Source of the DNA: Hanstruepera marina
GTDB lineage: Bacteria > Bacteroidota > Bacteroidia > Flavobacteriales > Flavobacteriaceae
DNA length: 64,000 nt
NCBI RefSeq assembly: GCF_019880635.1
Contig: NZ_JAINVX010000004.1
Location: 186,001-250,000, forward strand
Direction of reading: 5' to 3'
Below are positions 51,971 to 60,115 of the stretch, one piece after another. A program made the translations under genes and the position numbers. Each line of letters begins with the position of its first letter. The first letter of the stretch is position 1. The notes below the pieces were generated by a model that saw only the letters and a list, made by a program, of their open reading frames with translations, made no database searches and was not told the DNA's origin.

Positions 51971-52005
51971 AAAAAAGGCATTAGAAATTCTAATGCCTTT
52001 TTTTT
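51971..52005. terminator. Bidirectional terminator, shared with the hisIE stop
   Basis: GGCATTAGA (51977-51985) pairs with TCTAATGCC (51989-51997), preceded by six A and followed by eight T. The right arm contains the hisIE stop codon and last codons, so the end of the his operon is built into its terminator. Confidence 0.88.
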
Positions 52006-52586
52006 AAGACCTTTTCAATATCACATAATTTATAACCTTTAGCTTGCAATAAAATTAAATAATGAAAGAGTAAATCAGCACTTTCATTTAAAAACAAATC
52101 ATTATTGTCGTCTTTAGATTCGATAACTAATTCCACAGCTTCCTCACCTACTTTTTGCGCTATTTTATTAATGCCTTTTGCAAATAATGATGCCACGTAA
52201 GATTCATCTTCTAAAGAATTATTTCTTCTGTTTTCAATTATAGATTCCAATTTGGAGATAAATCCATGTTTTGATTTGTTTTCTTCATTCCAGCATGTAT
52301 CAGATCCTTTATGACAAGTTGGTCCTTCTGGATTTACTCTAATAAGTAGCGAATCGTGATCACAATCTGATTTAACAGATACAAGGTTAAGTACATTGCC
52401 ACTCTCCTCGCCTTTTGTCCATAGTCGATTTTTAGTTCTGCTAAAGAACGTCACCAACTTGGTTGACTTTGTTTTTTCTAAAGCTTCTTTATTCATATAA
52501 CCTAACATCAGTACAGCGTTAGTTACATCGTCTTGTATAATTGCTGGAACTAGTCCGTCGTTATTTTTGTTGAAATCTATATTCAT
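51990..52586 (-). CDS. hisI: Phosphoribosyl-AMP cyclohydrolase / phosphoribosyl-ATP pyrophosphatase
   Basis: A 198-residue bifunctional HisIE. The N-terminal cyclohydrolase part (1-105) has '[11 protein letters not shown]', '[14 protein letters not shown]', and the metal residues in 'DCDHDSLL' and '[12 protein letters not shown]'. The C-terminal pyrophosphatase (110-198) has '[12 protein letters not shown]'. It carries out steps 2 and 3 of histidine synthesis. It overlaps hisF by 4 nt and is the last gene of the operon. Confidence 0.96.
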
Positions 52587-53338
52587 AGCCTAACTTCTAT
52601 ATTTTTATTCTTTAGTTCTTGCTTCAAATCAATAATATCAATTTCACCAAAATGAAATACACTTGCTGCTAAAGCTGCGTCGGCATTACCTCTTCTAAAA
52701 ACATCAGTAAAATGCTGAACTGTGCCCGCTCCACCAGATGCTATTATTGGTATATTAACGAGTGTTGATAATTTGGCTAATGCACCATTTGCAAAACCTT
52801 TTTTAGTTCCATCATTATTCATAGAAGTGAATAATATTTCTCCAGCACCAAGTTGTTCGACCTCTTTTGCCCAATCAAATAGATTGAGTTTTGTACGAAT
52901 AGTTCCACCGGCTAAATAAACTATCCATTCATCATTATTTTTTTTTGCATCAATTGCCACAACAACACATTGACTTCCATACCTGTTGGCCAACTCGTTT
53001 ATTAATTCTGGACGCTTCACTGCTGATGAGTTTACCGATATTTTATCAGCCCCATTTTTAAGCAATATATCCACATCTTCTACAGATGAAATACCACCAC
53101 CCACAGTAAAAGGAATATTTACTTGTTCCGCCACCTTTAAAACTAGATCTTGCATAGTTTTACGTCCTTCTCTTGTAGCCGAAATATCTAAAAACACTAA
53201 TTCATCAGCTCCTATCGTTGCATATTTCTTGGCTAAAGCAACAGGGTCACCGGCATCACGTAAATCCATAAAATTGATGCCTTTTACGGTTCGTCCGTTT
53301 TTAATGTCTAAACAAGGAATGATTCTTTTAGTTAGCAT
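52583..53338 (-). CDS. hisF: Imidazole glycerol phosphate synthase, cyclase subunit
   Basis: A 251-residue (beta/alpha)8 barrel. The catalytic aspartates are in 'IPCLDIKNG' (Asp11) and '[10 protein letters not shown]' (the second). '[10 protein letters not shown]' and '[11 protein letters not shown]' are the phosphate-binding loops. It joins ammonia from HisH with PRFAR. It overlaps hisA by 11 nt and hisI by 4 nt. Confidence 0.97.
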
Positions 53339-54074
53339 TAATAATAAAATTTTCCAGTTCTCTTAATGATATTTTATTCTCGTAAATAGCTTTTCCTATG
53401 ATTGCTCCTTCACAACCAATACTCTTTAGATTTTGTAGGTCTTCAATTTTAGTTACTCCTCCAGAAGCTATTAAATTTAGAGATAACGTATTTAGATTTG
53501 TTTGGCAATATTTTATTATTCTTTTGTAGAGCTCTTCTGATGCCCCCTCTAACATGCCATCTTTAGAAATATCAGTACAAATCACATAAGTAATTCCAGC
53601 CTCTAGGTATTTTTTAATGAATGGTATTACATTAATATTACTCTTTTCTGTCCATCCACTTATAGCAATTTTTTGCTTGTTACAATCAGCTCCAAGAATT
53701 ATTTTTTGAGCTCCATAACGTGAAATCCAATTTTTGAAGGTGTCTTCATGCTTAACCGCAATACTACCGCCAGTAACTTGTTTCGCCCCAGAATTAAAGG
53801 CAATTTGTAAATCCTCGTCTGATTTTAATCCTCCTCCAAAATCAATCTTCAAATTTGTTTTTGAAGCTATCATTTCTAATACTTTATAGTTAATAATATG
53901 TTTTGCTTTAGCCCCATCTAAATCTACTAAATGAAGATACTCTACACCAGAATCTTCAAATTGCTTCGCTACTTCCAGTGGGTTTTCGTTGTATACTTTT
54001 TTGGTGCTATAATCACCTTTCTTAAGCCTAACGCATTTTCCTTCTATAATATCTATTGCTGGTATTATTCTCAT
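53328..54074 (-). CDS. hisA: ProFAR isomerase
   Basis: A 248-residue (beta/alpha)8 barrel isomerase. '[19 protein letters not shown]' carries Asp8, 'DLDGAKA' follows, '[12 protein letters not shown]' carries the second catalytic Asp, and 'FGGGLKS' and 'ASGGVTK' are phosphate loops. It converts ProFAR to PRFAR. It overlaps hisH by 4 nt and hisF by 11 nt, so the subunits are made in step. Confidence 0.96.
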
Positions 54075-54652
54075 AATTCTAAAAAATTTTTTAAAATTTG
54101 TTCTCCTGCCTGACTACTTTTTTCTGGATGAAATTGTACACCATAAAAATTATTTTTTTGCAAAGCAGAAGCATACTCTAATTGATAATTGGTTGTTGAT
54201 ATACACTCTTGACAATTTTCAGCATAATAACTATGCACTAAATACATAAATTCATATTCATTTACATTTTTAAATAATTCAGATTTTAAATTATAAATAG
54301 TATTCCATCCCATTTGAGGCACCTTTGAACTTGTACTAAATCGTTTAACCTTCGTGTTAAAAATCCCGAGTCCTTCTGTATTGCCTTCTTCAGTTTCCAG
54401 GCACATAAGTTGCATGCCTAAACAAATTCCCAAAACAGGTAGCTTAAGTTTTGGAATCAATATATCGAGACCACTGTTTTTAAGCATTTTCATAGCTGAA
54501 CTCGCTTCTCCCACACCAGGAAATATAATCTTATCTGCCGATTCAATTTTTTCAGGATTATTTGATAAAATGGCATCAACTCCCAGTCTTTTGAACGCGA
54601 ATTGTATACTCTTTATATTTCCAGCACCATAATTTATGATTACAACATTCAT
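54071..54652 (-). CDS. hisH: Imidazole glycerol phosphate synthase, glutaminase subunit
   Basis: A 193-residue class I glutamine amidotransferase. The nucleophile Cys is in '[11 protein letters not shown]', and the His-x-Glu pair is in 'GVQFHPEKS'. 'YGAGNIKSI' near the start is diagnostic for HisH. It produces ammonia for HisF. The start ATG shares one base with the hisB stop (TAATG), a coupled junction. Confidence 0.96.
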
Positions 54653-55788
54653 TATAATACGCCTTTAGTGGATGGTAGAATCATTCTTTCTACATCGCGC
54701 TTTATTGCCATTTTTATAGCTTTAGCAAAGGCTTTAAAAATGGCTTCTATTTTATGGTGTTCGTTAGTACCTTCTGCTTTAATGTTGAGATTGCATTTGG
54801 CGCCATCTGTAAACGATTTAAAAAAGTGCATAAACATCTCTGTAGGCATTTTACCAACCATTTCACGTTTAAAATCAGCCTCCCAGACCAACCAGTTTCT
54901 TCCTCCAAAATCAATAGCAACTTGTGCCAAACAGTCATCCATAGGCAAAGAGAAACCATAGCGCTCTATGCCTAATTTATCGCCTAACGTAATTGCAAAT
55001 AGTTCGCCTAACGCTATTGCAGTATCTTCAATGGTGTGGTGTTCATCAACCTCTAAATCACCGTTAACCTTAATATTTAAATCTAGTTGACCATGTCTAG
55101 TTATTTGATCCAGCATGTGATCGAAAAACGCAATACCTGTGTCTATTTTGCTTTTTCCAGTTCCGTCTAGGTTCAAATAAATTTCAATATTCGTTTCGTT
55201 TGTATTTCGTTTAATACTGCCTGTTCTATTTTTGGTTTTAAGAAATATGTATATTCTCTCCCAATCATTACTTTCCAATGCTATAAACGAATCTAGCTCA
55301 TCTCCATGAACGGTAATCTCATTGGCGCCTAAATTGGTATTATTATTTATAAAGATACCTTTAGCCCCTAAGTTCTTTGCCAGTTCTACATCTGTAAGGC
55401 GATCACCAATAACAAATGAATTTTCTAAATCGTAATCATTAGAAAAATATTGAGTTAGTAAACCCGTATTTGGTTTACGAGTTGGTGCATTTTCATTTGC
55501 AAAAGTTCTATCAATAAATTGTTCTTTAAAAACAATGCCTTCTGCTTCAAATGTTTTCAATATAAAATTGTGAACTGGCCAAAATGTTTGTTCTGGATAG
55601 GTTTCTGTTCCCAATCCGTCTTGATTTGTAATCATTACTATTTCAAAATCAAGTTCTTTTGCAATTTTACTTAAGTATTGAAATACTTTTGGATAAAACA
55701 CTAGCTTTTCAAAACTATCTATTTGCTCGTCTGCTGGTTCTTTAATAAGTGTGCCGTCTCTATCTATAAATAATACTCTTTTTTTCAT
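54652..55788 (-). CDS. hisB: Histidinol-phosphatase / imidazoleglycerol-phosphate dehydratase
   Basis: A 378-residue fusion. The N-terminal HAD phosphatase (1-165) starts with '[11 protein letters not shown]' (two catalytic Asp) and contains '[12 protein letters not shown]'. The C-terminal dehydratase (about 185-378) has the manganese ligand motifs '[14 protein letters not shown]' and '[12 protein letters not shown]'. The fusion order is that of enterobacterial HisB and is common in Bacteroidota. The 85-bp gap to hisC is the only sizeable break in the operon; I see no terminator in it. Confidence 0.97.
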
Positions 55789-55873
55789 ATTTATCTTGTT
55801 TATATTGTAAAATCAGGAATCTATTTGATTTATACTCTATTATGGATTTCACAATAAGTTTGGATTGACCATT

Positions 55874-56914
55874 TTATTTAAATTCATTGAAAATTTTTAC
55901 TAATTTTTTGTTCTCTTTTTCTGTTCCAATAGTAATGCGCAAGCAATTATCGCAATTGGTTTCATTTGTCCTATTTCTGACAACAATGCCTTTTTTAATA
56001 AGTTGATTGTATCGTTTAATTGCACTATCAACTTTTATTAAAATAAAATTGGCATCAGATGGGAATATTTTTTCAATACATTCAATGTGTTTTAATTGCT
56101 CGACTAATTGTGCTTTTTGTTCTATTAAATAATTTACCTCTTGAACAACATTTGAACTGTTCATTAGTCGTTTTATAGCCTTTTGTTGCGTTAATTCATT
56201 TACATTGTATGGTGGCTTAATTTTATGTAATGCATCTGTAATAGTTTTTGAAGCGTAACAAATACCAAGTCTAATTCCTGCCATTCCATATGCTTTTGAT
56301 AAAGTATGTGTTACAATTAAATTTGGAAATTCATCGAGCCTGCTTAACCAACTTTCTTGCTTTGAAAAATCTATATAGGCCTCATCAATAATCACTATAC
56401 CTTTAAATTGGTTTAATAATTTTTCAACTAACTCTGGATTAAAGCTATTGGCTGTTGGGTTATTTGGAGAACATAAAAACAAAAGTTTAGTACGCTTATT
56501 CGCGGCTCTTAAAATTTCATCAATATCGGGCTGAAAATCTATACTGCGCAACGGAATTTCAATATTTTTTACTGCATTGATATTTGCCAATACATTATAC
56601 ATTCCATAGGTAGGTGGTAACGTGATTACTTTATCCTGATTTGGTTCGCAAAACACTCTAAAAATTAAATCTAAAATTTCATCACTCCCATTACCTAACA
56701 AAATATTATTAATTGGAATATTCTTAATTTCAGACAACCTGTTTTTTAAAACAAATTGTTGGGGATCTGGATAACGATTCATATCATTATCAAAAGGATT
56801 TTCGTTAGCATCTAGAAAAACCAAATCGCTTGATATATCCTTAAATTCATCTCTAGCAGATGAGTACGGTTTTAGTGATTTTACATTGCCTCTTATTAAA
56901 AGTTCTATATTCAT
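55874..56914 (-). CDS. hisC: Histidinol-phosphate aminotransferase
   Basis: A 346-residue PLP enzyme. 'LLGNGSDEILDLIFR' binds the cofactor phosphate region, 'LCSPNNPTANSF' and 'VIIDEAYIDFS' follow, and the Schiff-base Lys is in 'HTLSKAYGMAGIRLG'. The C-terminal Arg sits in 'CLRITIGTEKEN'. It converts imidazole-acetol phosphate to histidinol phosphate. It overlaps hisD by 4 nt. Confidence 0.96.
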   Translation of the reverse strand: MNIELLIRGNVKSLKPYSSARDEFKDISSDLVFLDANENPFDNDMNRYPDPQQFVLKNRLSEIKNIPINNILLGNGSDEILDLIFRVFCEPNQDKVITLPPTYGMYNVLANINAVKNIEIPLRSIDFQPDIDEILRAANKRTKLLFLCSPNNPTANSFNPELVEKLLNQFKGIVIIDEAYIDFSKQESWLSRLDEFPNLIVTHTLSKAYGMAGIRLGICYASKTITDALHKIKPPYNVNELTQQKAIKRLMNSSNVVQEVNYLIEQKAQLVEQLKHIECIEKIFPSDANFILIKVDSAIKRYNQLIKKGIVVRNRTNETNCDNCLRITIGTEKENKKLVKIFNEFK

Positions 56915-58197
56915 TGTTTTAAGTCTTTTAGTCGATAAGAAACCGCATTCTTATGAGCTTTCAAGCCTTCTGCTTCTGCCATTAACTCAATAACACTTCC
57001 TATATTTTTTATTCCTGCTTTAGTTATTTTTTGAAACGTGATGCTTTTTGTAAAACTATCAAGATTAACTCCTGAGTACGCTTTACAAAATCCGTTTGTC
57101 GGTAATGTGTGGTTTGTCCCAGACGCATAGTCACCTGCGCTTTCTGGTGTGTAATTACCTATAAAGACAGAACCTGCATTTTGAATGCCATCAACAAAAA
57201 ATGTTTCGTTTTTAGAGCATATAATAACGTGTTCTGGTCCATAGCTGTTTATTAATTGCAAAGCATCTCTATCAGATTTTAGATGTATGGCTTTTGAGTT
57301 TTTAATTGCTGTTTTTGCGATTTCCATTCGTGGAAGATCTACAACTTGTTTTTTAATTTCTAAAGTCACTTTTTTAATCAAATCTTTAGAAGTAGATACT
57401 AAAATAACTTGGCTATCTGTTCCATGTTCAGCTTGACTTAATAAATCTGAAGCCACATATCTTGGAATTGCAGCATTATCTGCAAAAATGAGTAGTTCAC
57501 TTGGTCCTGCAGGCATGTCTATAGCTATACCGTATTTCGTAGCTAATTGTTTAGCTACGGTAACAAATTGGTTTCCAGGACCAAATATTTTATACACTTC
57601 TGGGATACTATTTGTTCCGAAGGTTAAAGCTGCAATAGCTTGAATACCTCCTACTTTAAATATTTTGGTTATGCCACATAAATTTGCTGCATATAAAACT
57701 TCATCTGCAATTTTTCCATTCTTATTGGGCGGTGTACACAAAACAATATCTTCACAGCCTGCAATATTAGCTGGGATTGCTAACATTAAAACCGTAGAAA
57801 ATAAAGGTGCTGTTCCTCCAGGTATGTATAATCCTATTTTATTAATAGCCCTTTTTTCTTGCCAACATTTAACCCCAGTTGTGGTTTCGACTTCTATACG
57901 CTTAGTTTTTTGAGCTATGTGGAATTTTGTGATATTGGATTTTGCAACTTGAATAGCCGCTTTTAAATCATCGGATATACGCGAATTAGCTAAATCAATT
58001 TCAGCTTTGGCAACCCTAAAATCATTTAAAATTGCACCATCAAACATACAAGTATATTTAGAAACTGCTTGATCTCCGTTACGTTTCACATCATCAAAAA
58101 TTAGATTTACTGTATTTTCTATATCATGAACCGTTTGGGTGGGTCGTTTTAATATTCTTGACCAATTTTCTTTTTTTGGGTTTTCAATTACTATCAT
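56911..58197 (-). CDS. hisD: Histidinol dehydrogenase
   Basis: A 428-residue zinc enzyme of standard length. Signature parts: 'GLYIPGGTAPLFSTVLMLAIPA', 'VFKVGGIQAIAALTFGT', 'DMPAGPSELLI', 'LSQAEHGTDSQVIL' (zinc Gln/His) and 'YGPEHVIICS', 'ASGTNHTLPT'. It performs the last two oxidations to histidine. It overlaps hisG and hisC by 4 nt each. Confidence 0.97.
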   Translation of the reverse strand: MIVIENPKKENWSRILKRPTQTVHDIENTVNLIFDDVKRNGDQAVSKYTCMFDGAILNDFRVAKAEIDLANSRISDDLKAAIQVAKSNITKFHIAQKTKRIEVETTTGVKCWQEKRAINKIGLYIPGGTAPLFSTVLMLAIPANIAGCEDIVLCTPPNKNGKIADEVLYAANLCGITKIFKVGGIQAIAALTFGTNSIPEVYKIFGPGNQFVTVAKQLATKYGIAIDMPAGPSELLIFADNAAIPRYVASDLLSQAEHGTDSQVILVSTSKDLIKKVTLEIKKQVVDLPRMEIAKTAIKNSKAIHLKSDRDALQLINSYGPEHVIICSKNETFFVDGIQNAGSVFIGNYTPESAGDYASGTNHTLPTNGFCKAYSGVNLDSFTKSITFQKITKAGIKNIGSVIELMAEAEGLKAHKNAVSYRLKDLKQ

Positions 58198-59051
58198 AAT
58201 ACCATATTTTCAATTGGGCAAACTAAAATTCCTTCTGCACCATTATCCTTGAGCTCATTAATTACATCCCAGAATTCATTTTTATTAATTACAGAGTGAA
58301 GGGAACTCCAACCTTCTTTTGCCAAAGGCAGTATTGTTGGACTGTTCATTCCAGGTAGAATACTAACAATTGCATCTAGCCTTTCATTTGGGGCATTCAG
58401 TAAAACATATTTGTTTTGTCTTCCTTTTAAGACGGATTGAAGTCTAAATTGAATTTTATCCAAAATAGCTTGGTTCTCATCAGATATTTTTGGTGAGACC
58501 GCTAAAACGGCTTCTGACTTTAGTAACACCTTTACTTCTTTTAAACCATTTTTAAATAGCGTGTTGCCACTAGATACAATATCTACTATAACATCAGCCA
58601 ATCCAATATTAGGCGCTATCTCAACTGACCCATTTATAATATGCAATTTTGCTTTAATTTTGTTTTTAGCCAAAAAATGATTTACAGTATTTGGGTAAGA
58701 TGTAGCTATGCGCTTTCCTTGTAAATCTTTTATAGATATAAAGGTTTGTGATTTAGGAATGGCTATAGAAACTTTACATTTAGAAAAACCTAATTTCTCA
58801 ATTATTGAAATTCCATTCCCTTTTTCTATAAGGACATTTTCTCCAATAATAGCAGCATCTACAATACCATCTTTAAGATATTGTGGTATATCACCATTCC
58901 TCAAATAAAATACTTCTAAAGGAAAATTTCTGGTTGATGCCTTAAGTTGATCTTTACCGTTGTCTATTGAAATACCTATTTCCTTAAGGATTTTCATTGA
59001 ATCGTCGTGTAACCGACCCGATTTTTGAACTGCAATTTTTAATTTACTCAT
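58194..59051 (-). CDS. hisG: ATP phosphoribosyltransferase, long form
   Basis: A 285-residue long-form HisG with the C-terminal regulatory domain (about 215-285; 'SPTILPLAKEGWSSLHSVI', 'GAEGILVCPIENM'), which normally binds histidine for feedback inhibition; no HisZ is needed. The catalytic part has 'IQKSGRLHDDSM'-type start, 'DAAIIGENVL' and the PRPP loop 'DVIVDIVSSGNTL'. It is the first structural gene and is preceded by the attenuator at 59112-59228. Confidence 0.96.
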   Translation of the reverse strand: MSKLKIAVQKSGRLHDDSMKILKEIGISIDNGKDQLKASTRNFPLEVFYLRNGDIPQYLKDGIVDAAIIGENVLIEKGNGISIIEKLGFSKCKVSIAIPKSQTFISIKDLQGKRIATSYPNTVNHFLAKNKIKAKLHIINGSVEIAPNIGLADVIVDIVSSGNTLFKNGLKEVKVLLKSEAVLAVSPKISDENQAILDKIQFRLQSVLKGRQNKYVLLNAPNERLDAIVSILPGMNSPTILPLAKEGWSSLHSVINKNEFWDVINELKDNGAEGILVCPIENMVL

Positions 59052-59104
59052 TATTCTTTTTTTGTTGTCTGAGTAAATCTTTTGGAGAGATTTCTAATGT
59101 GATA

Positions 59105-59140
59105 GAAATAAAAAACCGCTTGATTTACTCAAACGGTTTT
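59105..59140 (-). terminator. Transcription attenuator of the his operon
   Basis: On the minus strand AAAACCGTTTGA (59140-59129) pairs with TCAAGCGGTTTT (59123-59112), 12 bp with one G-U and a 5-nt loop, followed by TTATTT. It lies 60 bp upstream of hisG, inside the leader transcript. The 5' arm CGTTTGAGT (59135-59127) can alternatively pair with ACTCAAGCG in the leader coding region (59186-59178), which would prevent termination. Confidence 0.88.
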
Positions 59141-59171
59141 AAAAATATCTTGGTTTTTATTCAATACATCT

Positions 59172-59228
59172 TCAGCTCGCTTGAGTGCAAGTATGAAAAT
59201 GATGATGATGTAATTGAATAAAATTCAT
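59172..59228 (-). CDS. hisL: his operon leader peptide, 18 residues
   Basis: ATG at 59228, TGA at 59172; the product reads MNFIQLHHHHFHTCTQAS, with four consecutive His codons and a fifth after Phe. GGAAG lies about 10 nt before the start. The reading frame ends 31 nt before the attenuator stem. Stalling at His codons when charged tRNA-His is scarce would leave ACTCAAGCG (codons 15-17) free to form the antiterminator. No other plausible function exists for so His-dense a frame placed just ahead of hisG. Confidence 0.92.
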   Translation of the reverse strand: MNFIQLHHHHFHTCTQAS

Positions 59229-59246: not shown

Positions 59247-59279
59247 CAAATTTTCAAAAAATAATTTTATATATCCAAA
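59247..59279 (-). promoter_or_regulatory. Candidate his promoter
   Basis: Minus-strand TTTG (59279-59276) and AAAATTTG (59254-59247, one mismatch to TAnnTTTG) are spaced by 21 nt. The expected start point would lie roughly 10-15 nt before the leader ATG. Weak but placed where a promoter is needed. Confidence 0.35.
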
Positions 59280-59302: not shown

Positions 59303-60115
59303 CTACTGATTACCAAGTATAATAGGCATTCCTGAATCGCCAGAACCTATAACGATTACTTTTGAGTTTGGTGACTCCGATAATTTAATGGTGGCTTCAA
59401 TACCTTTGTCTTGTAAAATCTTATCAGTTAACGAGGCGCTTAATATTCTGTTTGCATCTGCTTTACCTTGAGCTTCTATACGTTGGCGTTCGGCTTCTTT
59501 TTGGGCTGTAACCAATCTAAATTCATATTCCAACGATTCTTGCTCTTGTTTTAATTTGCGCTCAATTGCATCTTTAATAGTTGGAGGTAGTGTAACATCT
59601 CTAATTAAAATACTATTCAATTGAATGTATTGATCTTCAACAATTTTTTTGGTTTCTTCATAAATTTCTGCCTGAATGGCGTCACGTTTCGTAGAATACA
59701 ACTGCTCTGGTGTATAGCGCCCTACTACACTTCTAGCTGCAGAACGAACCGCTGGCTGTAAAACACGTTGCAGGTAATCTTTTCCTTTTTCTTTATGCAA
59801 TCGTGGCAATTGTGAGTACTTTGGCTGATATAATACTGAAGCATCCAATTTAATATCCAATCCGTTTGAAGACAAAACTGACATTTTCTCTGGTATTTCC
59901 TGTTGTCGTACCTCGTACTCAATAACACTATTCCATGGTGCTACGAAATTAATCCCTTCTCCAAGAGGATCGCTATCGGGATCTACTCCTCCACCCAACT
60001 GATATAAAACTCCAGCATAACCAGAATCAATAGTTACAATAGATTTTGTAACAAGAACAAATAAGACTATAACTGTAATAATAATTGGCAACCCAATTTT
60101 TGGCAATTTTTCCAT
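59303..60115 (-). CDS. Prohibitin-like SPFH-domain protein
   Basis: A 270-residue protein with one N-terminal membrane anchor (about 8-25) and an SPFH/band-7 domain: 'VTIDSGYAGVLYQLGG', 'RQQEIPEKMSVLSSNGLDIKLDASVLYQP', then a long coiled coil ('LEYEFRLVTAQKEAERQRIEAQGKADANRILS', about 190-225). Prohibitin-like proteins form ring scaffolds in the membrane. It follows the VWA-like protein gene by 15 bp, and the two are likely co-transcribed. Confidence 0.9.
   Translation of the reverse strand: MEKLPKIGLPIIITVIVLFVLVTKSIVTIDSGYAGVLYQLGGGVDPDSDPLGEGINFVAPWNSVIEYEVRQQEIPEKMSVLSSNGLDIKLDASVLYQPKYSQLPRLHKEKGKDYLQRVLQPAVRSAARSVVGRYTPEQLYSTKRDAIQAEIYEETKKIVEDQYIQLNSILIRDVTLPPTIKDAIERKLKQEQESLEYEFRLVTAQKEAERQRIEAQGKADANRILSASLTDKILQDKGIEATIKLSESPNSKVIVIGSGDSGMPIILGNQ

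Follow-up and report, generated by a model that had tools for sequence, protein, structure and literature searches.

A conserved, probable histidine attenuator before hisG in Hanstruepera marina and other Bacteroidia, with a candidate link to hisG translation

Attenuation by a translated leader peptide is a textbook form of control. The enterobacterial his attenuator uses the classical ladder of six segments and, like classical attenuators at large, has a protector pairing that forms when the leader is not translated. RF00514 is described as a proteobacterial His-leader motif (PMC9413887), and passages of PMC4833913 name leaders before hisG in gamma-proteobacteria and before hisZ in Firmicutes; PMC4833913 also refers to a comparative paper on attenuation, Lopatovskaya 2010. 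The Firmicutes leader-peptide attenuators of his genes (PMC9413887) share with the locus described here 3-5 consecutive His codons and terminator and antiterminator hairpins, but they belong to another phylum, and the main text of that paper has no word beginning with "bacteroid". In the available passages of a paper devoted to his genes across this superphylum, attenuation comes up a single time, for enterobacteria (PMC8305728). Much closer is a transcriptome of Flavobacterium psychrophilum, which gave clues for leader-peptide attenuation of amino-acid operons and revealed, ahead of hisG, a structured 5' element that is shared by other Flavobacteriaceae genera and lacks an Rfam hit (PMC9723704). 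The hisG element as such was therefore noticed before. It comes from the same bacterial family and precedes the same gene, and is very probably the same element as ours; the main-text passages of PMC9723704 describe no anatomy, no alternative pairings and no arm like the one called D below. More widely, the literature searched on Bacteroidota his attenuators and dual control, in the parts accessible, mentions this hisG element and gives no description of an attenuator anatomy, of pairings or of a D-like arm in Bacteroidota, and Lopatovskaya 2010 may include members of the phylum. A single leader serving both termination and initiation is described in Bacillus subtilis, in the dual transcription and translation attenuators yxjB/tlrB (PMC6851288) and vmlR (PMC9226507) and in TRAP control of trpE (PMC12288461).

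The window analysed here is a stretch of 64,000 nt from Hanstruepera marina, in which hisG (58194..59051; minus strand, like all features below) is the first gene of a hisGDCBHAFIE operon (51990-59051). HisG matches NCBIfam TIGR00070 with 181 bits against a cut-off of 75.75, and hisD, hisC, the bifunctional hisB, hisH, hisA, hisF and hisIE each score above their own NCBIfam cut-offs. The gene before the leader (59303-60115) gives a weak NCBIfam hflK match (24.5 bits against a cut-off of 159.4) and, from its appearance, is presumably SPFH/prohibitin-like. Between the two lies a leader ORF of 18 codons, MNFIQLHHHHFHTCTQAS, which with its TGA stop occupies 59172..59228 and carries five His codons (codons 7-10 and 12). 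Four segments around it matter for what follows. Segment A, ATTCAATTACATC (59207..59219), spans codon 4 to the first His codon; the antiterminator segment AT, ACTCAAGCG (59178..59186), is the end of the leader frame; segment B, GATGTATTGAAT (59159..59170), lies 3' of the leader stop; and the terminator 5' arm T5, AAAACCGTTTGA (59129..59140), opens a hairpin with a GTAAA loop (59124..59128) and the 3' arm T3, TCAAGCGGTTTT (59112..59123), after which comes a T-rich tract. The terminator stem is 12 bp long (59140-59112). AT is complementary, with one G-U, to CGTTTGAGT in T5, and A pairs with B around one bulged base (59219-59207 with 59170-59159), so that A:B encloses AT. Leader, terminator and both of these pairings had been proposed in a first-pass annotation of this DNA, and we find every one of them where it was placed. 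The 129-nt RNA from the leader start to just beyond the terminator folds to -36 kcal/mol, compared with -16.05 (sd 3.38) for shuffled sequences (z = -5.9; none of 200 shuffles as good), and its minimum free energy (MFE) structure includes both A:B and the terminator.

A scan of the window with Rfam 15 found no family that attains its gathering score, the his leader RF00514 and the T-box included; across 20 relatives there was likewise no leader family and no T-box, the matches being only an SRP RNA and two tRNAs. With the enterobacterial attenuator (RF00514) the locus shares a His-codon leader, a terminator and an antiterminator before a his operon. It differs in lacking an Rfam match, in having two extra elements (segment D and a complement of the hisG start), and probably in its antiterminator strand, which here is formed by the last stretch of the leader frame and has the terminator arm as its direct partner. 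The sequence features that define the attenuator class are present: a His-rich ORF upstream of a his operon, an intrinsic terminator, and a conserved, mutually exclusive antiterminator. Attenuation of his genes is a known kind of control, and what appears new is the variant anatomy with a probable translational layer.

Conservation was assessed on hisG upstream regions from related genomes. hisG was detected in 55 of 80 relatives and in 64 of 139 genomes of the class, and at least 80 named hisG loci were fetched; among the matches listed, the nearest named HisG relatives were Flavobacteriaceae bacterium NBU2973 (88%) and Psychroserpens species (86%). The resulting set holds 196 upstream regions, seven of them duplicates. 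Scoring as a leader any frame with at least three His within seven codons and a start 90-260 nt before hisG, a His leader precedes hisG in 187/196 of these sampled Bacteroidia loci, compared with 13/980 dinucleotide shuffles and 1/196 reverse complements. Leader and terminator occur together in 184/196, and the observed terminator score was reached by 12/935 shuffles. Of 57 loci outside the window's order, as judged from kinship labels, 50 have the leader and 47 have both. The elements seen in the first pass are real and well beyond chance, and the first-pass reading of the hisG upstream region as a histidine attenuator is supported, with the leader frame and the alternative pairings holding in relatives.

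Finer comparisons were made after dropping the seven duplicates, two loci in which no leader was found (L033, L052) and two of odd length (L151, L156). Among 132 non-redundant loci on the Flavobacteriales side, which include two from outside the order (L152, L173), the first His-His pair stands at codon 7 in 116, and the leader peptide ends in QAR, QAS, QAN or QAK in 98, those being the codons that carry the antiterminator strand. In 45 of the first 52 loci the AT:T5 duplex is stronger than its shuffles at p<=0.05, and across 123 loci 936/984 aligned cells pair; there are 803 Watson-Crick and 133 G-U cells, 104 of the latter in one shared column, and six A-C cells. One locus with a miscalled hairpin (L040) was left out of the 52-locus tests of AT:T5, A:B and D:T5 and yet counts among the 132, as does a second such locus, L116. 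A further local hairpin between the leader stop and T5 reached p<=0.05 in only 24/132 loci. Upstream of the leader, an exact TAnnTTTG motif occurs between -45 and -8 of the leader ATG in 25/132 loci against 6.8 expected, and 19 of the 25 end at -20..-16. The window locus has no exact match; the candidate -7 promoter element there, AAAATTTG (59247..59254), has one mismatch and ends 19 nt before the leader ATG, which makes for a weak assignment.

Two interpretive claims of the first-pass annotation need rewording. The heptamer TCAAGCG does recur in the leader and in T3, as it had reported under the name of mimicry; however, both strands have one common partner, so the likeness is only a by-product of their competition for T5. 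It had also called A:B a built-in default-off pairing. A:B reaches p<=0.05 in 29/52 and in 93/132 loci, and would act as described, but this is not a new principle: by analogy, A:B appears to play the part of the protector helix of classical attenuators.

The anatomy and its conservation are observed; from these parts a response to histidine can be proposed. With the leader untranslated, A:B would form, AT would be closed in a loop, and T5:T3 would terminate transcription. When His-tRNA is plentiful, a ribosome at the stop codon would cover AT and T5:T3 would again terminate. When His-tRNA is scarce, a ribosome stalled on the His run (codons 7-10) would cover A and leave AT free to take T5, allowing read-through. 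The geometry of coverage, A by the stalled ribosome and AT by the ribosome at the stop codon, is inferred from the usual ribosome footprints.

What the first-pass annotation missed is a segment beyond the terminator, D, together with its complementarity to the hisG start. D, GATTTACTCAGAC (59067..59079), lies about 28-16 nt before the hisG start and is complementary to GTTTGAGTAAATC (59134-59122), which runs from the inner half of T5 across the loop into the first bases of T3. T5 has three competing partners: AT, T3 and D. In 37 of the first 52 loci the D:T5 duplex reaches p<=0.05, and 30 of these also reach p<=0.01; in the 132 non-redundant loci the corresponding numbers are 109 and 98, and the duplex energy averages -14.07 kcal/mol compared with -6.02 for shuffles. 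Such locus counts are not independent events, because the species are related. The loop columns, being free of the terminator stem and hardly bound by AT, give independent evidence for a relation of loop and arm to D. Loop and D types change jointly, as in GTAAA/TTTAC, GACAA/TTGTTTC, GAATTC/GAATTC and GCTAA/TTAGC.

To count such changes without choosing loci by their pairing, we took the 132 loci, less eight without an anchor (L042 and L048, left out of the loop/D comparison, have none) and three without a register; of the remaining 121, 117 had at least four arm pairs and 103 of these a full HisG on the tree. On this HisG tree 17 of 29 same-branch co-changes of loop and D kept the pair in register, and slid registers gave 2, 4, 6, 3, 5 and 2. 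With preselected loci and the register set by the arm the count was 21/25 (slid: 1, 2, 4, 4, 4, 1), and with both loci and register chosen by pairing it was 30 against at most 5; the last figure comes from 93 loci preselected at p<=0.05 and the one before it from 84 of those on the same tree. In the unselected set 563/726 loop cells pair, compared with 431 on average and at most 460 over 1000 permutations of loops among loci, a comparison from which species relatedness is not removed. At the level of sequence, T5 with the loop and D thus remain complementary through change, and the D:T5 pairing is well supported; its effect on hisG, and the sign of that effect, would be as proposed below.

Two explanations that need no RNA function for D have to be weighed here. 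Template switching during replication (quasi-palindrome correction) might maintain the likeness of T5 and D in this inverted repeat; it would mimic compensation around a functionless D and would place co-changes on the same branches. We consider this very improbable, since D holds its place before the ATG and differs among loci in its spacing from the terminator. The gap between T3 and D ranges from 9 to 45 nt, and the distance from D to the ATG is more constant: of the 103 strong cases, 84 have the 5' end of D 25-37 nt before the ATG, and in 19 D lies 43-70 nt before it. Alternatively, the repeat could be a DNA operator for some regulator, given two near-perfect inverted copies about 45 bp apart. 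G-U pairs far outnumber A-C in the strong cases of D:T5 (105 and 6), but this excess is weakened as proof of sense-strand pairing, with 62 G-U and 28 A-C in the unselected loop columns near the 69 and 42 given by permutation alone; the arm itself can hardly show A-C, because GTTTGA in T5 has one A and no C. Strand asymmetry, once composition is allowed for, is accordingly a weak means of excluding an operator. Such a site nevertheless seems hardly credible, as one copy is the terminator, and joint change of the loop part and D many times within one family is unlikely for a protein site.

D has a narrower distribution than the attenuator. D:T5 at p<=0.05 is found in Flavobacteriaceae, in four further families of the order (f2, f3, f5 and f15), and in L152 and L173 outside it, a range narrower than that of the His leader, which makes D look younger than the attenuator. 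Three class-level loci (L181, L186, L193) pass by energy without the same sequence pattern and were taken as chance. In 23/132 loci D:T5 is not significant, so the attenuator can do without D; L020, L021, L023, L027, L028, L030, L031, L035, L049 and L050, which keep the attenuator and have no significant D:T5, are natural controls. In L005, L006, L007 and L011, the four inspected of the loci with D farther from the ATG, about 20-30 nt of extra sequence with a GC-rich palindrome (e.g., CCCGCTTTCTCGGG) separate D from the hisG ATG, and D and its start complement are kept despite this longer spacer.

D can also pair with the beginning of the gene. Within it, GATTTACTCA is complementary to the hisG start as well, and the predicted MFE structure of the window's read-through RNA keeps the terminator hairpin and pairs D with the hisG start region ATGAGTAAATT (59041..59051). 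As D matches both, the terminator loop region (the loop with its flanks) resembles the hisG start. In loci with a GAGTA loop, a 5-nt complement of the start lies within -40..-6 in 31/49 against 4.2 expected, which follows in part from D:T5. Loci with an ATGAG start and other loops, in which D has lost its match to the start by way of the loop, still have such a complement in 30/49 against 5.2 expected. Most of these complements begin at one of two places, 17-18 nt ahead of the ATG, just behind D, or 32-37 nt ahead of it, in front of D and overlapping its beginning; eight lie wholly inside D and 22 do not. hisG genes with other starts show no excess (3/34 against 3.9 expected), nor do the controls, the leader-peptide start (7/132 against 10.1) and the outgroups (3/48 against 2.5, one match being the Flavobacteriales locus L149). 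These counts take each locus singly and are uncorrected for relatedness. D pairs with its own start better than with other start types in 84/103 cases, a result carried by the ATGAGTAAA type; for several start types it pairs with its own start no better than with others, or worse, and the codon-4 test of D against the start gives a borderline result (Fisher p 0.0495). Judged from these complements, then, D or an adjoining segment can often pair with the hisG start in ATGAG-start species. Species with other starts have no such complement, and some of them keep D:T5, so the proposed role of D fails there.

This last observation bears on a further possibility, that T5:D serves the structure or stability of the mature his mRNA as a hairpin with no regulatory role in initiation, as its retention in species without start complementarity (e.g., L025, L029, L032) would allow. 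We judge it improbable, because the distance from D to the ATG is steadier than that from T3 to D and complements of the start recur inside, before and after D. D lies 3' of the terminator and can act only on read-through RNA, or on such RNA in trans. The trans variant would have the loop and arm of the released, terminated leader RNA bind D on read-through his mRNA and block hisG when histidine is plentiful. The complementarity has the loop at its centre, loop and D co-vary, and a trans role is on record for the leader peptide of a transcription attenuator in Sinorhizobium meliloti (PMC7298713). Against this, T5 is locked in a 12-bp stem in terminated RNA, and no further exact site for D exists in the genome, even if one target would be enough: the D pattern occurs exactly only twice, as D and as the complement of T5, and with at most one mismatch 22 times, compared with 53 for a reversed control pattern. 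Action in trans, too, therefore appears improbable.

The reading we consider reasonably likely combines a ribosome-mediated histidine attenuator, with three partners competing for T5, and an action of D on hisG translation. Once polymerase has passed the terminator, D would emerge just before hisG and could displace AT from T5; held by T5, it would leave the hisG start open. On RNA that has leaked past an intact terminator hairpin, a free D would cover the start, and such stray transcripts would be poorly translated. Folding energies are compatible with the first of these steps. For RNA that begins 3' of a ribosome stalled at the first His codon and runs to D, mean MFE values are -23.4 with AT:T5, -28.4 with T5:D and -28.8 with T5:T3, and T5:D lies below AT:T5 in 95/103 and below T5:T3 in 53/103. 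Adding 45 nt of hisG changes the means to -33.7, -35.0 and -39.6, with T5:D below AT:T5 in 65/103 and below T5:T3 in 10/103; in the accessibility modelling, which includes the start region, T5:T3 is more stable than T5:D in 87/103. By these energies D can take T5 from AT on emergence, T5:D would have to be kinetic because T5:T3 is the more stable in the longer RNA, and in the ground state finally reached the terminator hairpin is formed, leaving D available to the start. Accessibility of the start in the model is 0.41 with T5:T3, no better at 0.42 when T5 is blocked in the way AT would block it, and 0.63 with T5:D; relative to T5:T3, T5:D makes the start at least 0.2 more accessible in 56/103 and 0.2 less in none, a result partly built in, because forcing T5:D removes D from other pairings.

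T5:D in RNA would thus favour hisG translation, although its sign could be the opposite. In that case T5:D would be a long hairpin ending about 15 nt before the start, hindering the 30S subunit (off), and AT on T5 would free D (on). D does stand at a rather fixed distance before the ATG and adjoins the mRNA region from -12 to -15 that bS1 may contact (PMC6847099). We regard this sign as unlikely, since T5:D is the more stable of T5:D and AT:T5 in the great majority of loci as long as the start is not yet transcribed, which would turn expression off just at the starvation signal, and a modelled drop of 0.2 in start accessibility appears in none of the 103. Extending the preferred sign, we tentatively suggest a relay, which we consider possible, though less likely than not: a stalled ribosome would free AT, AT would take the arm, the arm would be passed on to D, and the start would be unhidden, so that only transcripts induced by starvation would be translated well.

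With the B. subtilis yxjB/tlrB, vmlR and trpE leaders, this arrangement would share control of termination and of the first gene's translation by a single leader. The yxjB and trpE leaders hide a Shine-Dalgarno sequence, whereas in the flavobacterium the candidate target is the start codon region, the Bacteroidota being described as a phylum without Shine-Dalgarno sequences (PMC6847099). Further differences are that the signal here would be His-tRNA and that one terminator arm is common to three partners. Of the components of a dual attenuator, the leader ORF and terminator are present, and for the second structure, over the initiation site, an anti-start complement is enriched only in ATGAG-start species.

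Other leaders in the same genome offer some context. Upstream of a gene with a chorismate-binding domain, probably trpE, lies a trp-type leader, MNTILNHTWWWNFRNQLS (locus L204 on contig G000:C5), with a terminator AAAGGCTTGTC-ATTCAC-GACAAGCCTTT that ends 12 nt before the gene; it has no D-like arm, and leaves no room for one. The core of this terminator is similar to GGCTTACC/GGTAAGCC, which by eye is often the core of the his terminators of class-level loci outside Flavobacteriales (among L139-L202); in these, again by eye, a matching strand often stands at the leader end. ilvD (PF00920) was not found in the genome. For two homoserine dehydrogenase matches there was no trustworthy leader with terminator at the locus that reaches the gene's upstream region; the second locus stops short of that region.

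Segment D offers a directly testable case in which one shared RNA strand may link control of termination with that of initiation, in bacteria that initiate without Shine-Dalgarno pairing. Changes can be made in the terminator loop while the stem stays as it is, so a clean test is possible. If the relay is true, a single strand would tell the translation machinery how polymerase passed the terminator, in a phylum without Shine-Dalgarno control.
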